In this document: positions 27,962 to 45,921 of the stretch, piece after piece
Position numbering within the stretch: position 1 is the first letter of the stretch
Layout of the letters: each line of letters opens with the position of its first letter
Assembly: GCA_944367045.1 (NCBI GenBank)
Contig: CALVWI010000005.1
Location: 46,209 to 110,208 of the forward strand
Direction of reading: 5' to 3'
Source: an uncultured Clostridia bacterium
GTDB lineage: Bacteria; Bacillota; Clostridia; Christensenellales; Borkfalkiaceae
DNA: 64,000 nt
Position numbers and translations under genes: made by a program
The notes under the pieces: generated by a model
What the model saw: only the letters and a program-made list of their open reading frames with translations
Told to the model about the DNA's origin: nothing
Databases searched by the model: none

Positions 27962-28924
27962 TTACGTTTCCCTTCTTTCCGCCAATTTTTTCAGCGCGTA
28001 TTCGATCCCCATCGAAGTGTTCAGCGAATACTTAAACAACGAGGACGAAAGATCTTCAAATTCCCCTCTTGTCAACAGCGTATAATTGATGCGCTCGTCA
28101 AAATCGAAATCGGCAGCCATCATATAATTGACCTCACGTTTCACCTCATCCGCCACGCAGACGCGATAAAGCACCCGCTCTCCGTCCTGTACGCTGAACG
28201 CAAATGAAACGCAGGTGACGACGCCCGCCGTTTGAAATTTCTCCTTGCTGCCCGTTCGGATGTTGGCGGCAAGATGCTCGTGATACTTCAAAAAGGCGAT
28301 CAGCGCCCTCAACTCACGGCATTTTTCCTCTTTGGATAGATCGCTGTCCATAAACGCGACGCCATCGAAATAATCGCCGATGTCGTCGTAAATGTCCTGC
28401 AGTTTTCTGCTCCGCGTATCCATGGCGTCCATGAAACACCGCATGAGCAAGACGCACCACGCCGTAAAATAATTGACGTCGATGGCGCCCTCCATCACGG
28501 CGTGGATCTTATCGTAAATCGTGGGAAAGTCGGCGTAATCTCCCTTTTCGTAGCGGTAATCGAAGGAGATAATGTCGTCCAATTCCTGTTGAGAGAGCTC
28601 ACAACGTATTGCCCTTTTGAGGGTCTCCTGTCCGACGACGGGCTTCTTTTTCTCCTCCGCAGCCAGCCGATCGGGATCGGCCCTCCCCCCTGAATTATAA
28701 TAGCCGCAGAACTGTGATTTCACAACATTGAAAAGCTGCAAAAAGAACGTGCGAGAGACCTCAAAGAGCTGGATTCCGCCGACCTTCTTCCCGCTCAGCT
28801 CTCGCTCATGAAGATCGCTTGTAAACTCGTACTCGCGCTCATAGAGATCGACAATGAGCTCATCGCACGTCCCGTCCTTGCATTTGCTGTAAACGGCGAT
28901 CGTGCCGCGTTGATTGTATTGCAT
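27962..28924 (-). CDS. hypothetical protein, 320 residues
   Basis: I do not recognise this protein. It is soluble, charged, without signal peptide or long hydrophobic helix. The N-terminus (MQYNQRGTIAVYSKC) is followed by a stretch rich in Asp/Glu/Tyr (about 115-210) and a beta-rich C-terminal third. GGGGGAGG precedes the ATG, and a near-consensus promoter lies about 65 nt further upstream, so it is a monocistronic gene, perhaps with the small broken remnant behind it. Its place at the edge of a defence island makes an accessory role possible, but no motif supports this. Confidence 0.75.
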   Translation of the reverse strand: MQYNQRGTIAVYSKCKDGTCDELIVDLYEREYEFTSDLHERELSGKKVGGIQLFEVSRTFFLQLFNVVKSQFCGYYNSGGRADPDRLAAEEKKKPVVGQETLKRAIRCELSQQELDDIISFDYRYEKGDYADFPTIYDKIHAVMEGAIDVNYFTAWCVLLMRCFMDAMDTRSRKLQDIYDDIGDYFDGVAFMDSDLSKEEKCRELRALIAFLKYHEHLAANIRTGSKEKFQTAGVVTCVSFAFSVQDGERVLYRVCVADEVKREVNYMMAADFDFDERINYTLLTRGEFEDLSSSLFKYSLNTSMGIEYALKKLAERRET

Positions 28925-29154: not shown

Positions 29155-29180
29155 GGAAATAAGTGATCGTAAACGATAAA

Positions 29181-29211
29181 ACGAGGCGCTGAAATCGTGC
29201 CTCGTTTTTTT
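29181..29211. terminator. terminator after the BREX operon
   Basis: ACGAGGC and GCCTCGT form a 7-bp stem. Seven Ts follow on the plus strand and TTTTAT on the minus strand. It lies about 30 nt past the stop of the last BREX gene (29243), so its main use is probably to end that transcript. Confidence 0.7.
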
Positions 29212-29242: not shown

Positions 29243-30373
29243 CTACCGTTTGGGCAATAGAATTTTTATGAGCGCTTCTGCGATCTTTTCCGCTTCATCT
29301 AAAGTATTGTCTTTCCCGAGAGAGATCCGGATCGTCCCCTTTGCATACTCCTCGTCCGCATTGATCGCGTATAAGACATGCGAGATCTGAGTGTTCTTAC
29401 TGTCACAAGCGGACCCCGTGGAAACCATGATCCCCATGAGGTCAAGGCAATGGAGGATCGCCTCACCATCCGCATGGGGAAAGGAAAGGTTGAGATTGCC
29501 GGGAATACGCGGTTCCTCGCCGTTACGGCGATAGCTTATTCCGGCGGCATTGAGCTTGCCGATCAGTACTTGCTCCAATGATAAGATCCTGCTCTGGGAG
29601 TCAGCGAGGTGCACAATGTTATTCTGAAGTGCTACTGACATCCCCACGATCGAGGCAACATTCTCTGTCCCTGCTCTCAAACCAAACTCTTGAGCTCCCC
29701 CATCGGCATAGGGAGAAAGCTTCGTTCCCTTTTTGACAAAGAGGAATCCAATTCCTTTGGGGCCATTGAACTTATGTGCCGAACATGACATCATATCAAC
29801 GCCAAGAGTTTTTACGTCCACGGGAATATGACCAATTGCTTGCACCGCATCGGTATGGAACAACGCGCCATGTCTATGAGCGACAGCGCAAAGTTCTTGG
29901 ATGGGCTGGATAGTTCCGATCTCGTTGTTTACCATCATAATGGAGACAAGTTTTGTTTGATCGGTGATCGTACCCGCAAGAATATCCGATGTAATGAACC
30001 CGTCTTTATTCGGATGAAGATACGCCACGGGATAGCCAAATGTCTCAATTTTGGCACAAGCACGAAGAATGGCGTGGTGTTCGAATTCTGAAGTAATTAC
30101 AGCGCGATGATCCCCATATGAAAGGCTGCCTTTGATCGCCCAGTTATCGCTCTCAGTGCCGCCGGAGGTAAAATATATCTCCTCGGGCTCCGCATTGATA
30201 CACGATGCGATTTGGGCTCTGGCCTCTCGAATAGCTTGTTTGGCCTGTCTTGCGAATGAATATGGCTGTGATGCATTGGAATATTGATCTAGCAGATAAG
30301 GACGCATTGCCTCAAATGCGTCCTTATCAAGTTTTGTCGTTGCTGCGTTATCCGCGTAGATCATGGGGGTCAT
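29243..30373 (-). CDS. cysteine desulfurase, NifS/IscS/DndA type
   Basis: This 376-residue PLP enzyme takes sulfur from L-cysteine and carries it as a persulfide. The PLP lysine is K201 in SCSAHKFNGPKG, the stacking His is in EFEHHAI (about 99), and the active-site Cys is C323 in STGSACDS. It has the longer, flexible Cys loop of NifS/DndA-type enzymes. It is the last gene of the BREX operon, 9 nt after brxL, with GAGGTG before its ATG. In DNA phosphorothioation (Dnd) systems this family (DndA) hands sulfur to DndC. Here the DndC-like BrxP in the same operon is the likely receiver. A housekeeping role is less likely given the operon position. Confidence 0.92.
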   Translation of the reverse strand: MTPMIYADNAATTKLDKDAFEAMRPYLLDQYSNASQPYSFARQAKQAIREARAQIASCINAEPEEIYFTSGGTESDNWAIKGSLSYGDHRAVITSEFEHHAILRACAKIETFGYPVAYLHPNKDGFITSDILAGTITDQTKLVSIMMVNNEIGTIQPIQELCAVAHRHGALFHTDAVQAIGHIPVDVKTLGVDMMSCSAHKFNGPKGIGFLFVKKGTKLSPYADGGAQEFGLRAGTENVASIVGMSVALQNNIVHLADSQSRILSLEQVLIGKLNAAGISYRRNGEEPRIPGNLNLSFPHADGEAILHCLDLMGIMVSTGSACDSKNTQISHVLYAINADEEYAKGTIRISLGKDNTLDEAEKIAEALIKILLPKR

Positions 30374-30382
30374 ATCAGCACC

Positions 30383-31849
30383 TCAGCGGCTGTAAGTTAC
30401 TTCCGGTATCGTATTTTTACCCGGAACATTAAACTCCTTAGGGTCAATAATGCACAATTGCTTTTTAATGACTCCCCGCATTTCCAGCGCAGGTTCAAGG
30501 CAGTAGTGAACAAACTCCTCTTTGCTTATGTCATCCGGTGACTGAACATGCGGGAACAGCAGCTTTAAAAATGCCGTGCAGAGTCGCTTGATCGCGGTCA
30601 AATCTCTTTTGTCTGCATTGGACTTGTAGGAGATCAAGGACTCAACGATCGAGGCATACGAGAGGTCGCTGCGAAGTTCGTGAAGCACCTCTGCGAAATA
30701 TTCCGTATTGATCGCCCAGCCGTGTGCGATCATACCGGTCGTCATCCGCGGGATCTCCCAACCGGGGATAAACCCGTGGAATCTATCCAAGGTTGCCGAT
30801 TCACCGAAAACCTCACTGATATGTTCCACCATATTTTTGTTGATGTCAAAACGATCAGCATTGATATTCCCGAGGACAATGATACCCGCCTCCGCCGTAA
30901 GGGAAGCGTCAAATCCCTTGATCTCACCAAACTCCATATAATGCTTCAATGCTTGTTGGATCTGTCCAGGTTGTTCAAAGGTGATCGATTGAACTTCGTC
31001 AAAGCCAACATAGTCAAAGCGAGTCAGTAAGCCTCCGGTCTTTTTAGCATTGTCATAGATCAGTGAGGCACGAGATACCGTACCCCCGCTGATAAGCCAT
31101 CCCCTCTTGCTGATCTTTTCAAAGACATAGCTCTTTCCGGTCCCTTTGGGAGCGAGCTCGATCAGATTCACTCTTTTTTCCACAAACGGCAGTAATCGGC
31201 GCAAAAAGCACAACTTTTTAGCCTCACTCTCCACGCCATTTGCATCCACGTATCCGGCAGGATTGTAATCGACTGCCATCAGAACGACATCTATCCATTC
31301 ATGGATATCAAAATTTTTACGAGCCTCTCGAAAGAAATCAAGGTCGATCGAATACGGGCAAAACGGACTATAGTCAACCATGGAGATCACGCCCTTGGGA
31401 TTGGATGCCGTACCCTCAAGCGTCCAAACCAGCGTAATGATGCCCCAATTTTCACTCTCATGCAACAGCGTTGCTTGCCATTTTTCGACCACTTCGTTTG
31501 CGACCGTTCCACTCGCGCCGCCCTTTGCCCCGCCGAAATCAGGCAGCTCAAATTTCGTCTTGCCACTCTTTATATCCACATTCACGCGGACACGCGCAAG
31601 GAACTGGACCGTATCCCCGTTGATCATTTGGAACTTGAATTGCTCGAAATCGTCCTTCCCGGGGATATATCGTTTGATGTATCTGCGAACGCTATCGTAA
31701 TCAACAACACCTTCATTGTTCGAAAACTTCATGACCAACCAGTCGCGCATATAGGAAGGCATACTGAGATTGGAGAAGTATTCGCTCCTCTGCGGATCTT
31801 TCAGAACGACCATATCAGCAAATAACTCTTTAACTTTATCTTCCAGCAT
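30383..31849 (-). CDS. brxL: BREX protein BrxL, short form
   Basis: The 488-residue protein has the BrxL/Lon-like ATPase core: Walker A PKGTGKS (about 234-240), SGGTVSRASLIYD after it, and a Walker B-like FDEVQ (about 283-287). In type 1 BREX BrxL is about 680 residues and ends in a Lon-like protease domain. Here the sequence stops shortly after the ATPase, with no Ser-Lys protease region, so it is probably an ATP-driven DNA-binding or motor ring only. It follows the zinc-ribbon gene by 12 nt with GAGGAGG before the ATG. Together with BrxC, PglZ and BrxP it defines type 4 BREX. Confidence 0.88.
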   Translation of the reverse strand: MLEDKVKELFADMVVLKDPQRSEYFSNLSMPSYMRDWLVMKFSNNEGVVDYDSVRRYIKRYIPGKDDFEQFKFQMINGDTVQFLARVRVNVDIKSGKTKFELPDFGGAKGGASGTVANEVVEKWQATLLHESENWGIITLVWTLEGTASNPKGVISMVDYSPFCPYSIDLDFFREARKNFDIHEWIDVVLMAVDYNPAGYVDANGVESEAKKLCFLRRLLPFVEKRVNLIELAPKGTGKSYVFEKISKRGWLISGGTVSRASLIYDNAKKTGGLLTRFDYVGFDEVQSITFEQPGQIQQALKHYMEFGEIKGFDASLTAEAGIIVLGNINADRFDINKNMVEHISEVFGESATLDRFHGFIPGWEIPRMTTGMIAHGWAINTEYFAEVLHELRSDLSYASIVESLISYKSNADKRDLTAIKRLCTAFLKLLFPHVQSPDDISKEEFVHYCLEPALEMRGVIKKQLCIIDPKEFNVPGKNTIPEVTYSR

Positions 31850-31861
31850 GATCCAACCTCC

Positions 31862-32059
31862 TCAAAGGAATAAAGTACAGCCCTGCTCTTTGAACTCTTT
31901 GATCTTGATCTTCAAATCGTCCTCATCGCAACCAAAATATTCGGCCATGCAGGGCAGGCAATAAAACTCTTCCGTATCGACATCGATCAGCTTCTTGGAA
32001 AGAGCGATCTCATCTTTTTTTAGCGGCTTTCCGCAATTGCAGCAAACTTTCTTTACCAT
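31862..32059 (-). CDS. small zinc-ribbon protein in the BREX operon
   Basis: The 65-residue protein has CCNCGKPL at the N-terminus and CLPC about 26 residues later, a treble-clef or zinc-ribbon arrangement, followed by a charged helix (DEDDLKIKIKEFKEQGC). Its start overlaps the end of pglZ by 7 nt and brxL begins 12 nt after it, so it is co-translated with the core genes. Similar small proteins exist as free-standing genes in Clostridia, to my memory without assigned function. A role as adaptor or DNA-binding subunit of the BREX complex is only inference. Confidence 0.75.
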   Translation of the reverse strand: MVKKVCCNCGKPLKKDEIALSKKLIDVDTEEFYCLPCMAEYFGCDEDDLKIKIKEFKEQGCTLFL

Positions 32060-34413
32060 GGCAAATCGCCCTCCCCGCCGCCAAGAGGCGAAAGTAGTGT
32101 AACATCAGGCAAATTGATCAATCGTCCATCTGCAATGACTTCTACCGGATATGTGCCAGCTTTGACGCCGGGAAATACGACAGCCCACATTTTTCCGGTA
32201 TCAATCTTCGTTACGGTCGCCTGAATGCCAGCCATCTTTACCGCAAGGCTTTCTATTTGTTTGTTGAAAGAAATAGACAGTTTTGCTTTCCTCATCGAGA
32301 TCTTAACTGTCTGCTTTTCCCAAGAAGCCGTGATTTGAACGGCATTCTTGCTTTCGATCACAAGGACCGGGACCAGCATTTCTTCGGGTGTTGCACCCCC
32401 ATGGACCTCTCCATAGATAGCATTCTCATCATCCGCACCGGCTGCAAATCCGGACTGCCTGAAATGGTCATAATTGCTGAATACCGCATATCTGTCCCCA
32501 TCGGTACTATTTACGATCACTACATTGGGATGGGGCATCGTTGCACCTTGCGGCAACTTGCAGTATCTGCCATGGCTACAAACGACGGCACCCTTCGGTG
32601 CATCAAAGCCATCTCTGCAATGGAAAAACCGAGCCGCAAGACGGCTGGTACCATGATCCCCGGTGATCACCACACGACGATAATCTTTCAAAAGCGAAGA
32701 GACTTGATTGCCGATCCCCGCCACAAAATCCATCTGCTCTTCGATGCAGGCATAGTAATCCGGTTCGTCGATCACGCCTTTATGCGCCAGCTTGTCAAGC
32801 TTGTTCAGCTTCTTATATGGCATCGACATGCTATTCCATTGTTCGTTAAAGCTTGTCTCTGTAGGCAGCGTCGCTTGCGCTATCGCCACATTTGTAATGG
32901 TGCCGTCACAATGATCAGCGATACTCCAATACAAAAGCGGAAGCCATTCGGCGCCTAGCGCGTCCACCCAAAGAATGATCGTATCGTCGTCTTCGTATTT
33001 CGAAAGAATTGAATAACGATAATCAAAGACCGAGGCACTTACCCCATTAAAATACAGTGTTTCGTCGATCGGCAGGGTATTTTCAAGCTTATGTGCCTTG
33101 TATTTTGACATATACGCGCCGATGTCGCTTTGAAACACCTCCAAATCATGAGACAGGTATGCGGCAAGTGCAGGAAACGTTTCTTTCAACTTTACGCTCC
33201 CATTGGCCTGCTCCGGATCTTTTCGCAGCCATTGTTTAACCATTTTGAGAAGATATATTCTCTCTTCACGCGAAGAGCTTGTGATAAAATCCAACCGTTT
33301 CTCAAATTCCGGTATCGCATCAACAACCGCAAAATAGTCAGCATCCGGTTTGATTTTCATGACCGATGCAAGCGTCTTAAACTCATCGACCCAGTCCGGT
33401 CTGTCAACTCTTCTTTCAAAAATCTGATGTCCAATAACCGAGGGGATATCGGCAACGCATTCGGCAGCAGAGAAACAATAACAAAGGTAGCTACTGTCCG
33501 GGTGAATTTGAAACCAAAGCTTCACAAGTTCCTTGTGGCTCATGGGCAGCACATTCCATTTTCCCATGATGTCTACACCGGAAAAGGACGCCACATTCAA
33601 TACTTTAAGTATTGCATCATCCAATGACACGCCCTCCAAGGCATGATCAAAAAGCGCAAACTGCATTTCATCGGAACAGTTCTCTTTTGTCAAGCATTCA
33701 GCGCCTGGCATTTTTTCTTGGATAAGCGACAAGCGGTCATTGACCACATGGATATTGATCTTCCCTCTGCTCGAAGGAATTCTGTTGATTCGCTTGGTCA
33801 ACAAGACAAACCTCGTGTTTACCGGAGAGGGATTTTCCCAATACTCAAACCACTCCCGAAGGCCGATAAACAATTTGTCCGCGTCCCGCTTAAACTCCGC
33901 TATATGCCGCTCAAACATGCTGGATAATACAAGCAGATCCATTCTCCGAACCTCTTGTTCATCGTCGGTACAGTCAAAGAAATGATCTTCTTGCCGCAAA
34001 TCACCGTTGAGGTTGATCGAAGGATCAAACCACTGTGCTTCACACCCCCAGAGAGGAATGATGATCCTGCCACGGCTGTTTGCCGAGACTTGATGGGTCC
34101 ACAGTGCGGCAAATCTCCTGTCCGTGACCTCCTTTTTTGAGAAAAGCCGAAGATATTCACTTACGCCGGTCAGGATGACCCACTCGTCACGATAAGAATC
34201 GGCAGTGAGGTTCAAGTATTTTGGCATCACATCGGCGCCGGTAAAAATCTCACTTGATTTGATGACCCGAATATCGCTGATCTTCTTCATCTCCGAAAGC
34301 AACTGGCAATACTGCTCAACGCTCTCGACCATAATGGCACGACAGGGAAAGCGGGAAGGCAAATTACTTTGTTTTTCCTTCTGCAGTATAGATACTACTT
34401 CTTTGAGCGTCAC
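32053..34413 (-). CDS. pglZ: BREX protein PglZ (alkaline phosphatase superfamily)
   Basis: The 786-residue protein carries the PglZ domain in its second half (about 470-680). ILWVDALGAEWLPLLYW holds the first metal-binding Asp, ATLPTETSFN is typical of the family, and VITGDHGTSRLAARFFH gives the Asp/His pair. A beta-sandwich-like tail follows. PglZ is one of the two proteins found in every BREX type. The gene starts with GTG behind GGAGGAAAG and lies 18 nt after brxC. No separate function has been proven for the phosphatase fold; it may act on DNA ends or nucleotides. Confidence 0.92.
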   Translation of the reverse strand: MTLKEVVSILQKEKQSNLPSRFPCRAIMVESVEQYCQLLSEMKKISDIRVIKSSEIFTGADVMPKYLNLTADSYRDEWVILTGVSEYLRLFSKKEVTDRRFAALWTHQVSANSRGRIIIPLWGCEAQWFDPSINLNGDLRQEDHFFDCTDDEQEVRRMDLLVLSSMFERHIAEFKRDADKLFIGLREWFEYWENPSPVNTRFVLLTKRINRIPSSRGKINIHVVNDRLSLIQEKMPGAECLTKENCSDEMQFALFDHALEGVSLDDAILKVLNVASFSGVDIMGKWNVLPMSHKELVKLWFQIHPDSSYLCYCFSAAECVADIPSVIGHQIFERRVDRPDWVDEFKTLASVMKIKPDADYFAVVDAIPEFEKRLDFITSSSREERIYLLKMVKQWLRKDPEQANGSVKLKETFPALAAYLSHDLEVFQSDIGAYMSKYKAHKLENTLPIDETLYFNGVSASVFDYRYSILSKYEDDDTIILWVDALGAEWLPLLYWSIADHCDGTITNVAIAQATLPTETSFNEQWNSMSMPYKKLNKLDKLAHKGVIDEPDYYACIEEQMDFVAGIGNQVSSLLKDYRRVVITGDHGTSRLAARFFHCRDGFDAPKGAVVCSHGRYCKLPQGATMPHPNVVIVNSTDGDRYAVFSNYDHFRQSGFAAGADDENAIYGEVHGGATPEEMLVPVLVIESKNAVQITASWEKQTVKISMRKAKLSISFNKQIESLAVKMAGIQATVTKIDTGKMWAVVFPGVKAGTYPVEVIADGRLINLPDVTLLSPLGGGEGDLPW

Positions 34414-34431
34414 GCGGCTTTCCTCCTCCCC

Positions 34432-37400
34432 TTATTCTAAAAAGTCATCGCAAAACTCGGGATGTGCATCAAGAAATGCCGCGACCCGATCTCTCAAAAC
34501 AGATTCTTTCATGGCACGGACATTGCTCTTTGCCCTGTCCAGCTTTTCCTCTTTCGCCTTTTCTTGCTGCATCCGCTTGAGAATACTCAGAAGCGTAGTA
34601 AGGTCGGCGGCTGTCCAAGTGCTCATATCGTTGCCGATCTTGATCTTTGCCTTTGTAATGATGGCATTGCGATTCACATCCCACAACAGAGAGTACTCCG
34701 AACCGATCAAAGCCATGAAAGCTCTTTCGATACAGCTGTTATCCGTCAGAATACTCTTGTCCATCTTCCTTAAAGAAGAGATCGCACTTATAACGGCCGA
34801 ATCGACCGTATAATTGCCGTTTTGAACATCCAGCAATGTACTGAATGCTTTAGTAAGCTCTTTGGGAATGATCCACATCAAAGGAACATTGTGTGTGTTG
34901 CACCAAGTCTTTATGGAGTCCTCTCCAGTGATCGTGCGCCAAGTCTCCAAAAGCGTCAATTTATTCCGTGCAAAGCTGATCTTGTTGATCTGCGCATCAA
35001 GCTCTCTATTAAACTGCGTGAGTGTCGAATCACAGTTCAAGTCCTTCAACCCGATGTATACATTCTCAAGTTCTTCCTTCGTACATTCAAGGTTGCGGCT
35101 GGTCAGAATGTCTTCAAGCACAGGCTTTCCATTCCGCAGGCAGTCCATAGCCAACACACCGTGCTGATCGAGAGTGAGGATAGCCACTTCCCGGTCTTTA
35201 TTGCTCATGTGCGTCACATCAGTGTATGCCACATGATAGAGGACTTGCAGCGCAGAAAACCATGGCTTGTTGAGTTCGGCAATTGCACTCATCGGGATCC
35301 GCAAAAAGCCGAATAAGTTTTTCAAGTCCTTCTTGGCAGCCTCTATGCTATGATAGGTCGTCCCCTGAACTTTTCCGATCGCCTCCAAAAATTGATATTG
35401 TTCTGCGACATCCGCAAGCTTTTCCTTGACCTGCTCCTCTGTCCATGTATAAATTGCGGTCTGCATGACAGCATGAAGGCGGTCGCTCAATTCCTCGGGC
35501 TGGATCGCAAGTCTCGTTGCCACATCTTTCAGCTCAGGAGAGGCTTCAAAGAGGAAAGTACGGAAGGCTGCGGCCATCACATTCTTATCCTGGAATGCTT
35601 TTGCCAACACGACACGGATCTTCCCGCGGCCGTTAAAAAGCTGGAGCGTTTCGCTCATTGCGCCTTCCACATCCCCTTCTTGAGAGATGAAGGTTTGGAT
35701 ATGGTCGATCACCTTGTCCGCCGCCTTCCTATGGTCCTCACTGCTCCACTCAGTTTCGGGCAAATACTTTAATACCCAGAACGGTGAGCCGCTTTTGACG
35801 ACTGCCTCACGCACATTATGATAGCCGGAAGTTTGCTCGGCAAGCTGCGCCTCGGAAAGGTTAAAGATCTTAGAAAGATACTCACTGAAATTCTGCCATG
35901 TAATAGACCCGGCGGAAAGATAATCGGTAGTCATTCTCCCTCCGCACATAGCAGACACCATTCTACTTATAGTTGCCTCCGCAAGGACGTGAGGGGACTG
36001 AACGGAATCGGTCCATGTATATTTACTGTTCTTATAGCAAGAGAACACGAAGCCGAGCAAGACCCCGCAGGCGATGGTATTGTAGTAGCCAAAGGGAGGT
36101 TTTTGGAGCGTTGCCCACAAGTCACCCAGGTTGACTTTATGCCCGGACTCCATTTCGTTCTTTATAACTTCTGCCAGCGCCGCTACGCATTCGGCCTGTT
36201 TGTTGCCGTTATTCTTTGCCTCGACCATCTCCTCTATCGTGGTGAAATCAAGAACACCGGCCAGCTTCAGAGAGTTCAAAACATTCGTGAGCTGGCTGTT
36301 TGCGCTTTTACGCTGAATGCCGGCAGTCACCGCACCGTCATTGCAAGCTTTGTAGGCAGTGTTGGTCACAACAATGTTCTCTGGCGCATACTTAAAAATC
36401 ACATCCTGTACATTTGTACGAATGGTTTTCCTTAGATGAGCCATTCCGTATAGGCTGTTAAAGACGTTATCCCCATTGTAGGCAATGATTTTTCCGCCAC
36501 TGACAGCGCTGCTGACCCAAGAAGCAATGATGGTAGAAGCTTCCATACGATACTGCTGAGCGGAACCGGTCTGTCCGGAATCAGAAGCCATTTCCTGTTT
36601 GGTAATGGCCGCCAGCCATTTTGTGCGATTTTCGTCCGTAAGCGGTGTCTTCATCAAAGCGATCGTAAGACGCGGCTCATTGACTTCCTTCGCTTTCTCA
36701 TGTAAAACGGACTGGATCGATACCGCCTGTGTGTCACTCTGTACTGTCACGACAAGCAGCCCAAGCTTATAGGGATTCCTTTCAAGTTCCTTTGTGACCT
36801 CTTCCAAGCGAGTTTTGAGTGAATTCGTCTCGGCGCAACAGACTGTGATCTTCATGCGACGCAACGTGGCATCATTTACATCCCAAGCTTGCTGTTCAAA
36901 CGCTTTTGCAAATTCTCCATCCTTGGAGAACATCATATATCTGCTATATTTCTTGTCGTTTGCCGCAAGGCGTGCAGAAAAGTCACTGTTCCCGGCACCG
37001 TTGAAAGGCAACTGGATGCGAACGATGTTGTTCGCCCCCTTGTCCAAAACAAGGATCTTTCCGTCGACCATCGTCTGAAGCATATCTTCGATCTGCTTCT
37101 TGCTCATAACGCCTGCCAGACAAGTTTCAAGGCAATCCACCGTGGCCGCGATACCATCCTTGGCTCTTCTGCCGCTATAAATTCCCTTTGTCGATGACAT
37201 CAGGGCGAGCAGAAGCATGGCCGTCTTAAATATGCGGTGAGCACCTTCATCGTTCTCAACTAAGTGACGGCTCTCTTCGTAGTGGCGGATATATTCTGCC
37301 GCTTTCGTATCCTTGTCGGAAAAATCGCTTTCGCGCGTAAAGAAATAATCCCAAAGCCAATCGGGCGTCAGCCAGCAAGCCTGGGAATCGGGGCCCTCCT

Positions 37401-38643
37401 TGTTGATATAGCCCACGAAACCATGCTCCGAGTTAGACTGGTCCTTCATGAACCGAAACATCGTGCGCTGAGAAGCCGCATAGTTTTCGGCCACACGGGA
37501 AAGAAGCTTGATCGTCATGGGGTGTAGCGGGCAAAGGTGCTCGATCTGCTCACTGATCTTATCCTCCAAGCCGGACATATCGGGAAGGAAGGGCCGAATA
37601 TTGTCGATAACGCGCTTGCGCTCCTCTTTCCAGTGTTCGCTCATGCCGTTGCGAATGTTGATACAGCCGGCGATCAGATCGAAAGCAGCGTCTGTACTGA
37701 TATGGAACTCCACATGATGGAAGCGGTGGGTGATCAGTTGATACCGTTCCGGTGTAATACGCTCTACCATTTCGCTGGTGCGGTGGACCACGAAAAGCAT
37801 AAAGAAGGGCTGAACCTTGGTGAACTCTGAGAGCTGCTGAAGGATCGTCTGGTCGTCACTGTTTGAAACATATTCGGTAAACTCATCCCAAATAAAGAAG
37901 ATGCCCGATTTTGAAAGCCCGTTGTTCTCGATTACGGAAGCGATCCATTTTTTGAAGGTATCAAGACTGTCGATGAGGCCCCAATTGTACTGACGGATCA
38001 CGGCTGCCGTTTCCTGGAACGCACGGAGATCCCCCGCCCTGAGGCTTTCACGCAGTTGATCGATACTATCGTAATCGTCTCCAAGAATGGTATTCTCCAG
38101 AATATAATCCCAATTGTGGACGGGACTATTGACTTGCTTCAAGACCGCATCTTGTAGCGAAGACTCACCATAGTCTGCTTTATCGCCAAACTTGGCGGCA
38201 AGCGCTTCGCGAACAGCCTTCTCCGCCTCCATCAGCAGGGCGTTTCCGTCACGAATGCCGGTGCAGCCCGTTTTCCAAATGACGAGATAATCCCCCTTAT
38301 CCTTCGCGCGGCACTTCATAAAGCGATTGCGATAGGGTACAAGATGGCTGTTCCCGGCGAGGAAAGAATCCACAACTTCGGCGGGCTCTTCCATCAAATG
38401 CTTGATCATGATGGCAGCATAACTCTTACCGGTACCATAGGTACCTTCGATCCAGAAAGAACGGCGGCTGTCCGGCTCCTCTTTGTTGAGGGACTGGCAC
38501 AATACCTCCATCATCTTCTCCATGTCTTCGCCGACGATATACTCACGCCACAGGTTTTTATTGCGCGTATCGGCGTCGATGTCAACGACAGATTCAAAGT
38601 TCGGGCTGATTTCAATAAAATCTGAGTACTTTTTGGTCGGCAT
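34432..38643 (-). CDS. brxC: BREX protein BrxC (large P-loop ATPase)
   Basis: The 1403-residue protein has an N-terminal AAA-like ATPase: Walker A EGTYGTGKS (about 66-74) and a Walker B-like FFIWDEF (about 248). Long helical regions fill the rest, with no methyltransferase or nuclease motif. BrxC (PglY in type 2) is the second universal BREX component and is thought to act as the core motor or scaffold. Type 1 proteins are about 1200 residues, so this is on the long side. GAGGAGAT precedes the ATG, and brxP ends 17 nt upstream. Confidence 0.92.
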   Translation of the reverse strand: MPTKKYSDFIEISPNFESVVDIDADTRNKNLWREYIVGEDMEKMMEVLCQSLNKEEPDSRRSFWIEGTYGTGKSYAAIMIKHLMEEPAEVVDSFLAGNSHLVPYRNRFMKCRAKDKGDYLVIWKTGCTGIRDGNALLMEAEKAVREALAAKFGDKADYGESSLQDAVLKQVNSPVHNWDYILENTILGDDYDSIDQLRESLRAGDLRAFQETAAVIRQYNWGLIDSLDTFKKWIASVIENNGLSKSGIFFIWDEFTEYVSNSDDQTILQQLSEFTKVQPFFMLFVVHRTSEMVERITPERYQLITHRFHHVEFHISTDAAFDLIAGCINIRNGMSEHWKEERKRVIDNIRPFLPDMSGLEDKISEQIEHLCPLHPMTIKLLSRVAENYAASQRTMFRFMKDQSNSEHGFVGYINKEGPDSQACWLTPDWLWDYFFTRESDFSDKDTKAAEYIRHYEESRHLVENDEGAHRIFKTAMLLLALMSSTKGIYSGRRAKDGIAATVDCLETCLAGVMSKKQIEDMLQTMVDGKILVLDKGANNIVRIQLPFNGAGNSDFSARLAANDKKYSRYMMFSKDGEFAKAFEQQAWDVNDATLRRMKITVCCAETNSLKTRLEEVTKELERNPYKLGLLVVTVQSDTQAVSIQSVLHEKAKEVNEPRLTIALMKTPLTDENRTKWLAAITKQEMASDSGQTGSAQQYRMEASTIIASWVSSAVSGGKIIAYNGDNVFNSLYGMAHLRKTIRTNVQDVIFKYAPENIVVTNTAYKACNDGAVTAGIQRKSANSQLTNVLNSLKLAGVLDFTTIEEMVEAKNNGNKQAECVAALAEVIKNEMESGHKVNLGDLWATLQKPPFGYYNTIACGVLLGFVFSCYKNSKYTWTDSVQSPHVLAEATISRMVSAMCGGRMTTDYLSAGSITWQNFSEYLSKIFNLSEAQLAEQTSGYHNVREAVVKSGSPFWVLKYLPETEWSSEDHRKAADKVIDHIQTFISQEGDVEGAMSETLQLFNGRGKIRVVLAKAFQDKNVMAAAFRTFLFEASPELKDVATRLAIQPEELSDRLHAVMQTAIYTWTEEQVKEKLADVAEQYQFLEAIGKVQGTTYHSIEAAKKDLKNLFGFLRIPMSAIAELNKPWFSALQVLYHVAYTDVTHMSNKDREVAILTLDQHGVLAMDCLRNGKPVLEDILTSRNLECTKEELENVYIGLKDLNCDSTLTQFNRELDAQINKISFARNKLTLLETWRTITGEDSIKTWCNTHNVPLMWIIPKELTKAFSTLLDVQNGNYTVDSAVISAISSLRKMDKSILTDNSCIERAFMALIGSEYSLLWDVNRNAIITKAKIKIGNDMSTWTAADLTTLLSILKRMQQEKAKEEKLDRAKSNVRAMKESVLRDRVAAFLDAHPEFCDDFLE

Positions 38644-38660
38644 ACCGGATATCTCCTCAC

Positions 38661-41006
38661 TTATTCATTTTCGGCAAGATCGAGAATGTCGATGCTTGTA
38701 TGATCTTCAAGGATAATATTATCAAGATTTGCAATGAAGGAAACGCGGATATACTGCGGATAGGTCATCGCAAGGCCCTGGATCTTTTCTCGGAAGGCTT
38801 TGACATCGATGCCGTATATATCATGCGGCGAGATGCCCTGCGCCTCCGGGTTTGCATGCGAGTTAGCGAGTTCCGTAAAGGTAAAGGTCTTTCGACCGGT
38901 GTGTTCCGCATAAAGGTATAGCGCGTAAAGGAGCGCGACCGCATCGGGATAATCCCATCCCTCACGCAAATACGAGAACGTATTCTTTGTAAGCTCAATG
39001 GGGAGCCCCTGTTTCAGAGCAGAACCGATCGGCGACTGCCTCAGCGTCTCGGTCAGGGCCGTAATCGCATTCTCGCGATTTGATTTCGAATAACTATCGC
39101 CAAGCATCACGACAAGATCGCTCTTTTCATAGGTTGCTCCGATCTCAGCGTTAAGACAATACCATCGACAGATCGTAGAATTATAACAGAGGTTCGCCCA
39201 TATGATCGCCCATGTAAAGGGTTTATATGAACCCATTTGAATGAGTTTTGCGCCAAGGGGGGTAATACTGATCGTATTGGTATTGCCGGCTTTTTTCATT
39301 TCTATCATTTCAGCATCTTTAAGCCAAGTCTTAAGCGCAGAATATTGAACCGTGCCGAGCAATCCCTTTGTAAAACAATCTAATCCATCGTCTATAAAAT
39401 GTGTAAACCACGCTTGACGAAATCCAAAATGATGATATGGATCTAGACCTTTCATATTAACAAAACCTCCTTCGGGTACGCGCATATTATCTGCGACAAT
39501 ACAACTTCTGTCTGTGAATTCAATGCAATTATAGCAATGGATACATAGGTTTTCTCTGATTGCAATTTTCCCATCCGGCTGGATCGTAAAGGCTCCTGTA
39601 GGGCATTGAACCATGCATGCTTTGCAGCCAACGCAATATCCAACTTTATTTGCCACACCTCGAATACGGCTGATAACAAACCGATCCATCTGAGAAAAAG
39701 GATAGTATGAAACCGTCAGCGTTTCTTCGTTTTTCTGTATTCGGCATTCATAGTTTTGTGAGCCGATCTTATGTAATAGCCTTTTGTCGGCCTGCTCTAC
39801 GAAAACGCCAAGAATCTTGGCGACCTCAATCCAATCCTGCGTGGGCTTCGTAATGGTTATGACAAGCGCATTATTTTCTACGATTTCCTTTGTCCTGTTA
39901 CCGCCATTATCCAACCCTTTTCCGCCTACACGTGCTTTCCATCCACCGTTTTCGATATATTTTTTGAATTCGGTTTGCTTTGCATTTTTAGCAAAATGTT
40001 CAACTCGGAAAATAAGCTGCTTCATCTCATCCCCGTACACAGTATTAGCTATCCCCTCCCACCACTCGGAAGACATAGGACATACCATGCAGCCAACTCT
40101 AAAAAGCCCTATGCGATAGGCATCATTAAGAAGCAAGTCGTGCGATAACAGATAAGTAAATAATTCTGCCGTGTTCCATTCGATAATGGCATGGCAGTTT
40201 ATCTGACTTATATTCTTTGCGCCAACGCTAACTTTGTCATATTTTGCTCGGCGTACGCTTTCCTCTGCCCGAACCCCATCATACACAACTGCTTTTGCGT
40301 TATAATTACCTGTTAATTCTCTCAATTTGAGGATTGTCGGGACAGATTTATGAACAGAACAGCACCACCTCATTCTCCGTCCGGGCGGTCCAAATTTATC
40401 CCAGCTTTCAGCGGGATCCATATGGCATTTCGCTTCTTCAAATCTTAGTTGAGGCCAATGTTTCTTTGCCTTTTCTACGGCATCCAGGGTGGTTTTCAAC
40501 TCCATGCCTGTATTACTAAAGACAACGTAATAACTGTTTGGCGCCAATGCTTTTGAGACTAAATCTAACAGCAGAATGGAGTCTTTCCCGCCGGAAAAAG
40601 CACAAATGAACGAAAAACCATGAGGGGCATAGCGTTCATATTGTTCCCGGATAAACTGTATTTCCATTTGCTCCAGACTGACAAGGAGCTGTTTGTTTAC
40701 CTCATACAGCCGTTTGGTATCGATGGGCTTCAAAACAAGCCTTTTATCCGTGCGAAGCTCGATCGTAGGCTTTGTATAAAATGATCCACCCTGTGCAACC
40801 GCAACACATTCTCCGTTCAGGACATACTGTCGAATGCCTTCCGCCCACAAGAGTGGAGCGTCCGTATCCTTCGGGTAATCCCAATACCTGTCCATACCAA
40901 AGAAATCAAGTTCTTCATGGAATACGGGGCGGATCTCCTTTTGTATTTTTGCATCGATCGTCAGACGAAATATCCCGTATTCGTCTGTCCATTCATATCC
41001 GTACAT
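38661..41006 (-). CDS. brxP: BREX protein BrxP: PP-loop (PAPS reductase/DndC-like) with ferredoxin domain
   Basis: The 781-residue protein is multi-domain. An N-terminal region (1-130) leads to a PP-loop ATP-pyrophosphatase with SGGKDS (138-143). Cys215-Cys216 plus Cys306-x2-Cys309 form the CC...CxxC set that holds a [4Fe-4S] cluster in APS reductases and DndC. A ferredoxin-like domain follows, with CxxCxxCxxxC (458-468) and a second set at 488-502. The C-terminal 250 residues begin GLDPYHHFGFRQAWFTHF, resembling DUF4007 as found with Dnd proteins. This is the marker gene of type 4 BREX. With the operon's cysteine desulfurase it suggests sulfur insertion into DNA. GGGAG precedes the ATG. Confidence 0.92.
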   Translation of the reverse strand: MYGYEWTDEYGIFRLTIDAKIQKEIRPVFHEELDFFGMDRYWDYPKDTDAPLLWAEGIRQYVLNGECVAVAQGGSFYTKPTIELRTDKRLVLKPIDTKRLYEVNKQLLVSLEQMEIQFIREQYERYAPHGFSFICAFSGGKDSILLLDLVSKALAPNSYYVVFSNTGMELKTTLDAVEKAKKHWPQLRFEEAKCHMDPAESWDKFGPPGRRMRWCCSVHKSVPTILKLRELTGNYNAKAVVYDGVRAEESVRRAKYDKVSVGAKNISQINCHAIIEWNTAELFTYLLSHDLLLNDAYRIGLFRVGCMVCPMSSEWWEGIANTVYGDEMKQLIFRVEHFAKNAKQTEFKKYIENGGWKARVGGKGLDNGGNRTKEIVENNALVITITKPTQDWIEVAKILGVFVEQADKRLLHKIGSQNYECRIQKNEETLTVSYYPFSQMDRFVISRIRGVANKVGYCVGCKACMVQCPTGAFTIQPDGKIAIRENLCIHCYNCIEFTDRSCIVADNMRVPEGGFVNMKGLDPYHHFGFRQAWFTHFIDDGLDCFTKGLLGTVQYSALKTWLKDAEMIEMKKAGNTNTISITPLGAKLIQMGSYKPFTWAIIWANLCYNSTICRWYCLNAEIGATYEKSDLVVMLGDSYSKSNRENAITALTETLRQSPIGSALKQGLPIELTKNTFSYLREGWDYPDAVALLYALYLYAEHTGRKTFTFTELANSHANPEAQGISPHDIYGIDVKAFREKIQGLAMTYPQYIRVSFIANLDNIILEDHTSIDILDLAENE

Positions 41007-41021
41007 CTATTATTTCTCCCG

Positions 41022-41687
41022 TCAGCGGAGTATATCTTCACAACTTTCCCTCGTTACCCAAGGCCGATAGCGGTGCAGTGCCGCATGGCAAGTCGGACAT
41101 ACCGTCATAAAGCGCTCTGCTCCATATCTCTTTGAATGATCCATGCGCGTCGGCGCAACGACCAAATGATTTTCAAGCAATTGCTCGCCATTCCGATAAT
41201 AGAGGACCGGCTTGATTTTGCATATCTCGCAGCGATCCTTTACGGGCACCTTTTTGCCGTCACGCCGTTCAATCATGCGATGAAGATGCCCCATGAGGAT
41301 CCCTTCCGGGAATCCCTGATCCTCAAGAGGAGAGCCGAATTGGGCAACAAATGCCTCTTCATTCTTCCGAATAGCTTGGGCGACCGCGTGAAGCTCGTCC
41401 AATTTGTTTTCATATTCAAATGCAACAGTAAAAAACAAACTTCCAACGTCAGGGTCTCTTTTTCCCGTATTGCAGCTTGAGCGGTACGACATGATTTGTT
41501 GCGAGATGCCGGTATTGCTCCTAAAATCAGCCCGTCTGTTTTCTACCGGATGAATTGGCAGGCGGTTGAGAAGCGAGCTGAGCTCTTTGATCTCGTCGGA
41601 GTCTGCAGTCACCCTGCCGTTTTCTGAGGAATAGAGAACATCCAACGCCAATATCACTTCATCCCGCGTAAAGCTTGCACTTGCCAT
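41022..41687 (-). CDS. HNH-type endonuclease in the BREX operon
   Basis: The 221-residue protein has an N-terminal domain (about 1-110, FTRDEVILALDVLYS...ELSSLLNRLP...FRSNTGISQQI) seen in many McrA-like HNH enzymes. The C-terminal HNH zinc finger has C153ExC156, H174 in LENHL, C197PTC200 and H205. The middle Asn of a classical HNH motif is not obvious, so the site may be a variant. It lies 4 nt after the large unknown gene and 15 nt before brxP, so it is part of the operon. Likely role is DNA cleavage, either of unmodified invaders or of foreign modified DNA. Confidence 0.8.
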   Translation of the reverse strand: MASASFTRDEVILALDVLYSSENGRVTADSDEIKELSSLLNRLPIHPVENRRADFRSNTGISQQIMSYRSSCNTGKRDPDVGSLFFTVAFEYENKLDELHAVAQAIRKNEEAFVAQFGSPLEDQGFPEGILMGHLHRMIERRDGKKVPVKDRCEICKIKPVLYYRNGEQLLENHLVVAPTRMDHSKRYGAERFMTVCPTCHAALHRYRPWVTRESCEDILR

Positions 41688-41691
41688 CTCA

Positions 41692-44496
41692 TCACACCCT
41701 TACCGTAACGCGTTCGCCCTTCGCATCCCATGCAAAGCGCTCATCTTTTGCCAAGGCCTTCGGCAGATTATAAATCAGCTCATTTCCTTGGATCATGCCT
41801 GTTTTTATAAGAAACTGTCGTAAAGCCCCTACCTCGAAGGAACGCTGTTCCGTTCCGCTGTCAACTAGGCAAGCGACCACTGCGTCGCCGAAGTTTTGTA
41901 TCGGGCCATCGGCCTTTACGAGCATGGCATGAAGGGTATCCATGCTCTGCGACTTCAATGCGGCGATGGTCTTTGCGCCCCACTCTCCGCCATAGAAAAT
42001 CAGCACATATTGGAGCAACAGTGGCGTCCAAGGCCTGCGTCCGGGCAGCGCAGGAAGCGATTCAAACCAAACTGACTCGATCTGCCGAAGGATGATATGG
42101 TCACCCACATCATTGAAAAGTTTCCCCAACGCCCGTCCAACACTTTCTTTCCACGGGTTGTCGATCCCCATGCTTTTCGCAGAGATGATCGTACCCGGCT
42201 CATAAAAGAAAAACTTCGCCTCTTGCCCCAGGTGCATTTGATTCCTTAGGTTTCCCGTCTTTATGCCGATGCTTTTCAGATACTCGGCAAGATCCCCTTC
42301 TTGGAATACGCCACCTTGTTCCTCTGCATACTTGCAAATCACATCGAAAATACTGCCTATCGTGTTCTCGGAGCTTGAAATATGGGCCTTATTGATGAAT
42401 GAATAGCGCTTACCTTCAAAACGATTCTTTTCAAATAAGTGCTGAGCAATCTCGTAAACAGAACGCTCATCATTCATATCATTGTCGTTAAGGAACATAT
42501 TCATCTCTGCCCGAGCGTAATCATACAACTGCACGGCAGAAATGTAACCGTTGTTTTTCTGCATCAGCTTTTCCATGATAAGCGACAGCTGCTTGGCACC
42601 ATCGTCCCAATCGACAAAGGCATCCTCATGGTAAAGCTTCCCCTTGATCTCCACAATATGTCTGCATCTCCAAACAAGTCCCTTGATCGCGACCATGGGC
42701 ATATTCAGAGTGTTATATAAGTCATCATAAGTGACGCCGCTCAAATCGGCGTCAAGCACGATTTTTTCAATTCTTGCGATCATTTCAGACTCGCCCGGTT
42801 CCTTCTCCCGCGAAGAAGTCGAAGGTAAAGAGATCACGCGAACGTTATCAAATGCGACTTGACTCGCTTGACCGGCATTTCCGTCATCCTGCTGTTTCTT
42901 GTCAGTCTCGTTTGCGGTAAGTCCATGCGGTATTCCCACAGAGGAAGCTCGCACCGCATGAGTATAAGGACCTTCGATCGAAACAGCGATCGTTGCACCG
43001 ACACATCGTTGAGCGATCCATTCAGCCGCATCAAGCACGGAATCCTTTGTTAGATCTGCACGAACGTAGCTCGTAGGCTCCTCTATCTTGATGAAGTCAT
43101 CGCTTTCGGGGGAGCGGAATATCTTAACATTGGAATGAGTGCCGATCGTTTTATCCAAAAGCGATCTAAAAAACAACGGATTCTTTTTGGCGATCTCCTC
43201 GCAAAAATGGGAGAATGCTTTTGCAGGTGTGTCTCCGGAATAAACAGTCGGGCCGCAATGAAGCTCATAAAGAGGCGTCGGCCTTTCCGCTGTTTCCGGT
43301 TCTAAAAGCCAACTCACTTTAGCGAAGACGCTATGACGCATTGAAATAGGATAGACATCCTTCTCATTCATAAACGCCCAAAGCTTCAATGATTTTAGTT
43401 GTTCTATTGTACGGATATCCTCTTTTGCCAAAGCTTGCCTGAGCGGCAAAAAATCTTCATCGCTCAACAGCGTGTCTATTTCAGATGCAGTAAACGCATC
43501 CCCTTTGACAAAAGGATCTGTCTCCGACCTCAAATTTTCAGACACTTCAGCAATTGGCGCCAATTGCTCATTGAAAAACTCCGAATAGAGAGCCAATGCG
43601 TTGGTGAACCGATTCGCTTTGCGGGAATCAGCATAAATAAAGTTTCTATCAGCAAGCAAAAAAGAACGAACAGCACTTATTGTTTCTGCTGATGTAATGT
43701 GATAGATATCATCTTCAATGAGCTTTTCTGCTTTTACTCGTTCCGCGCAGCGTTTTAATGAAGACAAAATAACGGATATATCATTGGGTAAAACGCCTCG
43801 CCCATGAAGCCACTCGGTAAACAACGTCTGGTTGTTTTCATTGGATATGGCTGTCGAATACGGCTTATCTGTCGGCACTTCCTCTACTGGCTGCACAACG
43901 GATTCGCTTTTTACAGAGCTGCTAAAGTCACCAGTCGTCCACCATGCAGGAGAATAATCCGTTGCCCTGGAGCCATCCGCTTTGAAGTGAAATCTCACAC
44001 CGCGAATGGAACACTCATCAACAAATTCCTTTAATTCTTTGCCGCCAATGATCCAGAGACATCCATTCTTTTGCCGATTATCTATAAAAGAAATATTGTT
44101 TGCAGTCAAAAAATCAACAAGAGACCCACTCTCAGCTGTCTCTTGTTCCGATTTTTTAGACGAATCTTTCGACATACATTCAGGCTCAACCGAGCTCTTA
44201 TTATCTTCGATTTCCTGAATGAAGCGGCAATATTGTTGGATCGCCGCCACCATGATGCTTTTTTGTTTTCTATACTTAAGCGAAAGAATCCTACTGCCTC
44301 TAATGGTCTCGATCGCACCGGAGAGAATCGCTAAATCATCTATCTCGAATATTGGCTTTTCTAAGATCTTTCGTTTCAAACAAAAACGATCGATCCCTTT
44401 GAAGACTGAATGTATGACAGGCATCCGAGAGGAAGGGACTCGCTTTGAAAGCCATTCAAAGAAATCATTCTCATATGAAGCAATGCTGTCAGACAT
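41692..44496 (-). CDS. large protein of unknown function, first gene of the BREX operon
   Basis: This 934-residue protein starts at ATG 44496, set by GAGGTG 7 nt upstream; the open frame reaches 44562. Two copies of a helical module of about 85 residues occur near 8-95 and 235-320: both share an F-x-EWL start, a Ser/Lys-rich helix and an ending like YCRFIQE/YSEFFNE. Between them (about 125-195) lies a domain reading IDNRQKNGCLWIIGG...ATDYSPAWWTT, known from restriction-associated proteins. The C-terminal half looks helical with winged-helix-like segments. No nuclease, ATPase or methylase motif is visible. As first gene of the operon it may be the specificity or sensor part. Confidence 0.75.
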   Translation of the reverse strand: MSDSIASYENDFFEWLSKRVPSSRMPVIHSVFKGIDRFCLKRKILEKPIFEIDDLAILSGAIETIRGSRILSLKYRKQKSIMVAAIQQYCRFIQEIEDNKSSVEPECMSKDSSKKSEQETAESGSLVDFLTANNISFIDNRQKNGCLWIIGGKELKEFVDECSIRGVRFHFKADGSRATDYSPAWWTTGDFSSSVKSESVVQPVEEVPTDKPYSTAISNENNQTLFTEWLHGRGVLPNDISVILSSLKRCAERVKAEKLIEDDIYHITSAETISAVRSFLLADRNFIYADSRKANRFTNALALYSEFFNEQLAPIAEVSENLRSETDPFVKGDAFTASEIDTLLSDEDFLPLRQALAKEDIRTIEQLKSLKLWAFMNEKDVYPISMRHSVFAKVSWLLEPETAERPTPLYELHCGPTVYSGDTPAKAFSHFCEEIAKKNPLFFRSLLDKTIGTHSNVKIFRSPESDDFIKIEEPTSYVRADLTKDSVLDAAEWIAQRCVGATIAVSIEGPYTHAVRASSVGIPHGLTANETDKKQQDDGNAGQASQVAFDNVRVISLPSTSSREKEPGESEMIARIEKIVLDADLSGVTYDDLYNTLNMPMVAIKGLVWRCRHIVEIKGKLYHEDAFVDWDDGAKQLSLIMEKLMQKNNGYISAVQLYDYARAEMNMFLNDNDMNDERSVYEIAQHLFEKNRFEGKRYSFINKAHISSSENTIGSIFDVICKYAEEQGGVFQEGDLAEYLKSIGIKTGNLRNQMHLGQEAKFFFYEPGTIISAKSMGIDNPWKESVGRALGKLFNDVGDHIILRQIESVWFESLPALPGRRPWTPLLLQYVLIFYGGEWGAKTIAALKSQSMDTLHAMLVKADGPIQNFGDAVVACLVDSGTEQRSFEVGALRQFLIKTGMIQGNELIYNLPKALAKDERFAWDAKGERVTVRV

Positions 44497-44639
44497 CACC
44501 GAACACCTCGATCTCTCGTCTTGAAAATATAGATATGCACCAGCTGCGAAATCTCGCACCAAGGACTCTTGCTCGTGTTAAGGCCCTCCGGAAAGACACC
44601 TTTTGCATACCCCGAGAAAAAACACAATTTACCCTTTTT

Positions 44640-44668
44640 ATTATACTACTGAAGCTCTCATAAATCAA
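44640..44668 (-). promoter_or_regulatory. promoter of the BREX operon
   Basis: Minus-strand TTGATT (44668-44663) and TATAAT (44645-44640) are 17 nt apart. The transcript would start near 44633, giving a leader of about 137 nt before the ATG at 44496. Upstream, 44669-44869 is AT-rich and shows nothing else I can name. Confidence 0.65.
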
Positions 44669-45891: not shown

Positions 45892-45921
45892 GTGCCCGAT
45901 CACTCCGATGGGAGGTGGACT

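Follow-up and report, generated by a model that had tools for sequence, protein, structure and literature searches.

Type 4 BREX (bacteriophage exclusion), encoded by the brxPCZL genes, is given in PMC11931770 as one of three gene families that make phosphorothioate (PT), and type IV BREX (brxPCZL) is called a PT system in PMC12707154. PMC12839542 treats type 4 BREX as PT-based, reports that 255 of 457 taxa carry a cysteine desulfurase, which it regards as a possible sixth core component, and states that a small zinc-finger partner often accompanies this desulfurase and that standalone HNH genes occur near BREX loci. Both elements, the making of PT by type 4 BREX and a desulfurase within the operon, have therefore already been published. 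Here we describe a locus in a stretch of 64,000 nucleotides (hereafter the window) from an uncultured Clostridia bacterium of the Borkfalkiaceae (assembly GCA_944367045.1, contig CALVWI010000005.1, positions 46,209 to 110,208), which is very probably an extended type 4 BREX anti-phage operon whose desulfurase supplies BrxP for PT marking. An earlier reading of the same letters (hereafter the original prediction) had proposed that this BREX marks self DNA with sulfur instead of methylation; the literature on brxPCZL supports that idea, and the chemistry of the window operon is what we infer by extension.

Gene content of the operon

The operon lies on the minus strand from 44496 to 29243 and comprises eight genes in the order ORF934 (named as an open reading frame, ORF), an HNH-like gene, brxP, brxC, pglZ, a gene for a 65-residue zinc finger, brxL and the cysteine desulfurase gene, with successive spacings of 4, 15, 17, 18, -7, 12 and 9 bases. 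The five genes named in the original prediction (brxP, brxC, pglZ, brxL and the desulfurase) are all present at their predicted positions and recognized by family models, but its inventory was incomplete, having overlooked the two upstream genes and the zinc-finger ORF between pglZ and brxL. The assignment to type 4 BREX rests on a BREX-4 PglZ, a BrxP with a PAPS-reductase (phosphoadenosine phosphosulfate reductase) domain replacing the methyltransferase, and the presence of BrxC and BrxL in the same operon. It resembles published type 4 BREX in these four proteins, in having no matched methyltransferase and in its desulfurase and small zinc finger, and differs from it by the addition of ORF934 and the HNH-like gene upstream. 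A minimal counterpart is found on plasmid pNP174 of Methanosphaera sp. ISO3-F5 (NZ_CP118754; locus L104), where a BrxP 31.5% identical over its full length is followed by BrxC, a BREX-4 PglZ and BrxL; the desulfurase, zinc finger and ORF934 were all not found there, nor in a further locus, L058.

Two other sulfur-based systems share parts with the operon. SspABCD(E) resembles it in an SspA-like desulfurase, an SspC-like ATPase, a PAPS-reductase protein and a DUF4007 module, matched in the window below the Pfam cut-off (homologies according to PMC12839542), whereas the window has PglZ and BrxL and its BrxP is matched weakly by the SspD model. DndABCDE likewise has a DndA-like desulfurase and a PP-loop enzyme with iron-sulfur (Fe-S) cysteines, but no DndB, DndD or DndE model matched here and the desulfurase falls under the NCBIfam DndA cut-off. 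A separate cluster on the Treponema saccharophilum plasmid pTS1 (L105) encodes BrxP-like, DUF4007 and BrxC-like proteins and a desulfurase. Behind these lie a helicase gene, a gene for an ATP-binding protein and one of the phospholipase D family; that stretch gave no match to the profiles of PglZ and BrxL, and from its genes the cluster appears to be an Ssp-like relative.

BrxP matches its PADLOC model across residues 1-776 (E 1.5e-225), and a second PADLOC BrxP model of 265 positions matches residues 523-703 (E 8.8e-21). Pfam places a PAPS_reduct domain (E 3.5e-25) and a Fer4_7 domain (E 8.9e-7) in it, together with a DUF4007 match below the family cut-off (E 8e-4, 19.0 bits against 27); in type 4 BREX a DUF4007 module is frequently joined to BrxP. 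The SGGKDS motif (residues 138-143) is invariant across the aligned relatives, as are C215/C216 and C306/C309 in all 20 aligned rows covering them (window included), and beside this CC/CxxC set the ferredoxin-like region has eight invariant cysteines. The motif and cysteines named in the original prediction are present, but BrxP, described there as DndC-like, resembles DndC weakly, with PADLOC E values of 4.6e-5 for DndC and 1.9e-6 for SspD.

BrxC matches the PADLOC models for BrxC (E 1.9e-58) and SspC (E 1.2e-27), lies far below its NCBIfam cut-off (31.8 of 400 bits) and keeps its GTGKS and WDEF motifs in 19/19 rows. PglZ passes the curated NCBIfam model NF033445 'BREX-4 system phosphatase PglZ' with 276.5 bits (cut-off 140), is matched by PADLOC (E 3.4e-27), and conserves D484, D586, H587 and H671, which we take to be metal-site residues, in 19/19 rows. 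BrxL is recognized by PADLOC (E 1.3e-186), by TIGR02688 in NCBIfam (413.7 bits, cut-off 329.3) and by the Pfam families BrxL_ATPase (E 2.7e-106) and BrxL_N (E 3.8e-24); since it covers positions 5-474 of the 482-position PADLOC model, its length is normal for the family and it is not the short form that had been supposed. As predicted, the operon has no recognizable methyltransferase: Pfam matched none in the seven operon proteins scanned, and the zinc finger, scanned with NCBIfam only, gave no match. In the latter protein, C6, C9, C34 and C37 are conserved in 19/19 rows.

The HNH-like gene is optional, being present in six loci (window, L043, L044, L049, L056 and L057). Its product has C153, C156, H174, C197, C200, H201 and H205 invariant in all six rows. 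The classical HNH motif combines a Cys/His scaffold with an acid-His pair and an Asn; here the residue preceding H174 varies (N, L, N, A, A, N), and Pfam HNH models match two of the six members weakly (best E 0.032), for which reasons we rejected a confident nuclease call for this 221-residue protein.

Conservation of gene order among relatives

To compare neighbourhoods, we combined 18 loci from a BrxP scan of genome contigs with stretches around further BrxP matches and with one plasmid record. The BrxP search at E 1e-3 matched 348 of 391 genomes, a count that says nothing about BREX because, among the matches listed, most were short ferredoxin or PAPS-reductase pieces. Clusters without PglZ and BrxL (L065-L068, L105) were not counted as BREX-4. 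The gene set from ORF934 through the desulfurase, the HNH-like gene apart, recurs in 16 loci with both ends visible, window included.

In 21 of the 25 BREX-4 loci with at least about 1.4 kb visible upstream of brxP (window, L040-L054, L057, L060, L062, L063 and L064), the gene immediately before brxP, or before an HNH-like gene that precedes it, resembles ORF934; this fraction overstates the frequency of ORF934-like genes across type 4 BREX since most of these loci are near relatives of the window BrxP. The gene is partial, at a contig end, in L043 and L052, and was not found upstream of brxP in L056, L058, L059 and L104, of which L056 looks rearranged or truncated. Three loci that end too near brxP (L055, L061 and L016) were excluded from this count; a different contig of the L061 genome (L117) carries an ORF934-like gene that extends up to the contig edge. 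In L060, L062, L063 and L064 the protein is 13-15% identical to that of the window, and the profile scores of L060 (57 bits) and L064 (70 bits) are no better than those of five solitary non-BREX proteins (36-66 bits), so that these two calls rest mainly on position. Locus L064 (630-7804), from the same genus, has the ORF934-like gene, a brxP frame of only 486 residues and then a serine recombinase; the BrxC, PglZ, BrxL and desulfurase profiles found no match in it or in the remainder of its contig (L124), which carries housekeeping-looking genes.

The neighbourhood comparison called for by the original prediction places a desulfurase behind BrxL, either directly or with the zinc finger in between, in 18 of the 20 loci where this position is visible (window, L040-L042, L045-L047, L049-L055 and L060-L063), the other loci ending early or lacking BrxL. 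The order is BrxL, zinc finger, desulfurase in L060-L063, and zinc finger, BrxL, desulfurase elsewhere.

Identity and lineage of the desulfurase

The predicted NifS/DndA-type desulfurase is borne out by PADLOC matches to DndA (E 1.3e-129) and SspA (E 5.8e-129) and by the residues K201 (SAHK) and C323 (STGSAC), which are invariant in 18/18 operon copies; in NCBIfam it scores under the cut-offs of both NifS (429 bits, cut-off 530.75) and DndA (332, cut-off 480). We built a tree of 47 rows, comprising 18 BREX-4 operon copies, 26 rows labelled HK and three labelled SSP because they adjoin BrxP-like and BrxC-like genes in places where PglZ and BrxL are missing. Six duplicates (L084, L085, L086, L088, L103 and L070) were removed beforehand and weaker NifS-model matches without a locus were not used; HK row L081 is the window copy again and falls inside the BREX-4 clade, leaving 25 other class-V enzymes. 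The 18 operon desulfurases form a single clade (support 100/100, stem 0.66) apart from these 25 and from the three Ssp-associated enzymes, and this clade neighbours seven NifS-type enzymes with weaker support (94/80).

The original prediction had left room for the operon copy being the only housekeeping IscS/NifS of its genome. That genome has eight Aminotran_5 matches and four NifS-model matches, the operon copy included in each; the other NifS-model matches are on contigs C6, C20 and C13 (the last distant), the C20 gene being cut by the contig end and adjoining a gene that resembles thiI by eye. The operon copy is thus not the sole family member, and it belongs to a separate clade.

Across 16 loci, desulfurase and BrxP distances correlate at r 0.33 on log distances (a value reached in 47 of 2000 permutations) and r 0.47 on plain distances (5 of 2000), and the desulfurase correlates with other core genes at 0.20-0.39 against 0.81-0.96 for the core genes among themselves. 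Taking BrxP together with the other core genes, the desulfurase values span 0.20-0.33 on log distances and 0.35-0.47 on plain ones. The looser correlation is largely due to three distant loci (L060, L062 and L063), in which the desulfurase is 56-62% identical to that of the window and BrxP 34-35%; either slower evolution or exchange between sub-groups would fit this gap. We also considered swapping of desulfurases between operons, read from the weak correlation, and rejected it, as it is not borne out by the 13 loci of one gene order, where the desulfurase-BrxP correlation (r 0.64) is above that of BrxP and BrxL (0.57).

ORF934, a conserved upstream gene

ORF934 has a variable N-terminal part and a conserved C-terminal core (residues 562-934); by eye, an ATG start at 44496 is preferred over a TTG at 44562. 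Searched up to E 0.1, Pfam matches nothing in the window protein; NCBIfam gives no match either, and the sole PADLOC match, to ZorC 'EH signature' (E 5.9e-4), is to the TTG form. Pfam scans of 20 members gave a phage-integrase SAM-like domain in three (best E 0.0018) and 11 other families in one member apiece. Sequence searches found nothing at E 1 among solved structures (whole protein and core), no plasmid match at E 0.01 and no match in any of 60 relatives' genomes besides its own.

AlphaFold models from 17 rows have a confidence (pLDDT, predicted local distance difference test) of 77 for the whole protein and 91 for residues 562-934. Foldseek found nothing at E 1e-3 with the whole model; with the core it returned three matches at E 1e-3 or better (two chains of E3-UFM1/UFL1 complexes and one of TFIIIC), followed by others that include ESCRT-II, SelB and Dcc1, with cullin-type chains also listed. 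We take the E3-UFM1/UFL1, TFIIIC, ESCRT-II, SelB and Dcc1 matches to be repeated-winged-helix proteins, and the core is accordingly predicted to be a tandem winged-helix array. The template-modelling (TM) scores are low (0.17-0.26 by query length) and the root-mean-square deviations large, which points to a shared building block and not to kinship.

At E 1e-5 the ORF934 profile matches 11 of 391 genomes of the class. Five also have BREX-4 (the window genome, G150, G152, G254 and G349); another five (G027, G062, G183, G138 and G210) encode, outside BREX, solitary proteins of 821-866 residues (L118-L122) with the ORF934 C-terminal module, and in G300 the match is within a UvrD-type helicase, so that the module is not restricted to BREX. 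A sigma-70 region 4-like helix is present in all four solitary proteins scanned (L120 was not), two of them over the Pfam cut-off.

Since PMC10853773 describes SspB, DndG and similar components with three winged helices as likely to recognize DNA, we guess that ORF934 contacts DNA. We tentatively propose that it is an unrecognized subunit of extended type 4 BREX, forming a package with the desulfurase and zinc finger, which might scan DNA or read the sulfur mark and hand the target to BrxP and BrxC. We found no description of it in the sections of PMC12839542 covered here, and a literature search aimed at it gave nothing relevant among the 10 entries listed of 3,509; the figures or supplements of PMC12839542, or the primary report by Yuan and others, may hold one.

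Proposed mechanism and alternative explanations

Gene content, operon layout, conserved motifs and the BREX-4 lineage of the desulfurase are observed directly; from these and from published work, which underlies the sulfur transfer, the PT marking and the effector role of PglZ, we infer the chemistry, the order of events and the parts given to the zinc finger, ORF934 and the HNH-like protein. Most likely, the desulfurase draws sulfur from cysteine for delivery to BrxP. The PP-loop domain of BrxP would use ATP to activate a DNA phosphate, sulfur then replacing a non-bridging oxygen at selected positions. BrxC, as the ATPase, and the DUF4007-like and winged-helix parts would choose and scan the DNA, and PglZ (a nuclease/phosphatase) and BrxL would act on unmarked DNA. 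Probable roles are, for the zinc finger, to assist the desulfurase or control it and, for ORF934, to contribute contact with DNA or the sensing of sites.

Several observations weigh against this scheme. As judged from its sequence, BrxP resembles DndC weakly, and PMC12839542 notes that it lacks a DndC cysteine pair. Over 16 loci the desulfurase follows the core genes more loosely than these follow one another, though in the 13 loci of one gene order it fits BrxP better than BrxL does. Its absence from L058 and L104 indicates that some operons can do without it.

The desulfurase could instead assemble the ferredoxin-type and CC/CxxC Fe-S clusters in BrxP, with the DNA sulfur coming from elsewhere or one enzyme doing both, which we hold to be possible but not likely. 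The invariant BrxP cysteines favour it, as does the host genome (G000, 93% complete), where NifU_N has no match at E 1e-3 and SUFBD just one, hinting at a minimal Fe-S assembly system; DndA is also said to be able to assemble DndC as an Fe-S protein, as the title of one paper has it. However, the other desulfurase-family genes and the SUF-type gene could build such clusters, and the operon enzyme has its own clade. These roles are compatible with one another.

Modification of a base with sulfur by BrxP, or some change other than in the backbone, appears improbable: BrxP is distant from both DndC and SspD and carries extra domains to which PMC12839542 assigns no clear role, but the same source treats type 4 BREX as PT-based and PMC11931770 has brxPCZL among the PT-making families. 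That a housekeeping desulfurase merely adjoins the operon can be dismissed as highly unlikely. It is the last gene, with broad NifS, IscS and DndA matches each under its cut-off, but it lies 9 bases from brxL, keeps that position in 18/20 loci and falls in a BREX-only clade that holds no stand-alone housekeeping enzyme among the tree rows, in a genome with other family genes. Equally remote is an Ssp (defined as the SspB-SspC-SspD set without PglZ and BrxL) or Dnd system in place of BREX, for despite the SspC-like BrxC and SspA/DndA-like desulfurase, PglZ and BrxL are present at full length, the SspD and DndC models match weakly, the desulfurase reaches 332 bits against the DndA cut-off of 480, and PADLOC at E 1e-3 gave no match to DndD, DndE or SspE among the scanned operon proteins.

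Genomic context

The features of the operon are collected in Table 1.

Table 1. Features of the type 4 BREX operon, in window coordinates.
Feature	Position	Strand	Basis
ORF934, 934 residues, operon gene 1	41692..44496	-	kept upstream of brxP in relatives; AlphaFold, Foldseek
HNH-like zinc-binding protein, 221 residues, optional gene	41022..41687	-	Cys/His alignment; Pfam HNH
BrxP: PAPS-reductase/PP-loop domain, ferredoxin-type 4Fe-4S cysteines, DUF4007-like C-terminus	38661..41006	-	PADLOC, Pfam, motifs
BrxC, 1403-residue P-loop ATPase, SspC homologue	34432..38643	-	PADLOC, invariant motifs
PglZ, alkaline-phosphatase-superfamily effector, GTG start	32053..34413	-	NCBIfam NF033445, conserved residues
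Zinc-finger protein, 65 residues, CxxC...CxxC	31862..32059	-	ORF and conserved cysteines
BrxL, 488 residues, N-terminal domain and ATPase	30383..31849	-	Pfam, TIGR02688
Cysteine desulfurase, NifS/IscS/DndA-like, K201 (SAHK), C323 (STGSAC)	29243..30373	-	PADLOC, NCBIfam, tree
Likely terminator 3' of desulfurase: 7-pair stem, 11-nucleotide loop, TTTT	29175..29210	-	by eye
Candidate promoter TTGATT-17-TATAAT before ORF934	44640..44668	-	10/12 consensus matches

Promoter-like sites in the region show no clear excess (29 against 22.4 in shuffles, standard deviation 4.9), nor did the terminator scan rise clearly above shuffles; it permitted loops of at most 8 and hence does not list the stem-loop of Table 1. 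The G+C content of the operon (47.3%) is below that of the window's left 24 kb (58.7%) and right 18 kb (56.4%), suggesting that it may have been acquired from elsewhere; the 5 kb immediately downstream is likewise low (49.9%).

Downstream of the operon, a 320-residue protein (27962-28924, minus strand) has its own promoter-like site (TTGACT-18-TATAAT, 11/12) and no Pfam (E 0.01) or PADLOC match. On the other side lie a DprA-like gene (45892-46752, plus strand) matching ShosA (E 4e-50) and a helicase (47842-50559, minus strand) matching the phage-defence candidate PDC-S53 (E 0, 1075.8 bits), which together with the BREX operon look like a defence island.

Implications

The operon adds one more well-preserved example of a probable sulfur-marking BREX. 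That the operon desulfurases form a clade of their own supports the published view of this enzyme as a member of the BREX system, and ORF934 offers a concrete candidate for how a methyltransferase-free BREX may pick its sites.

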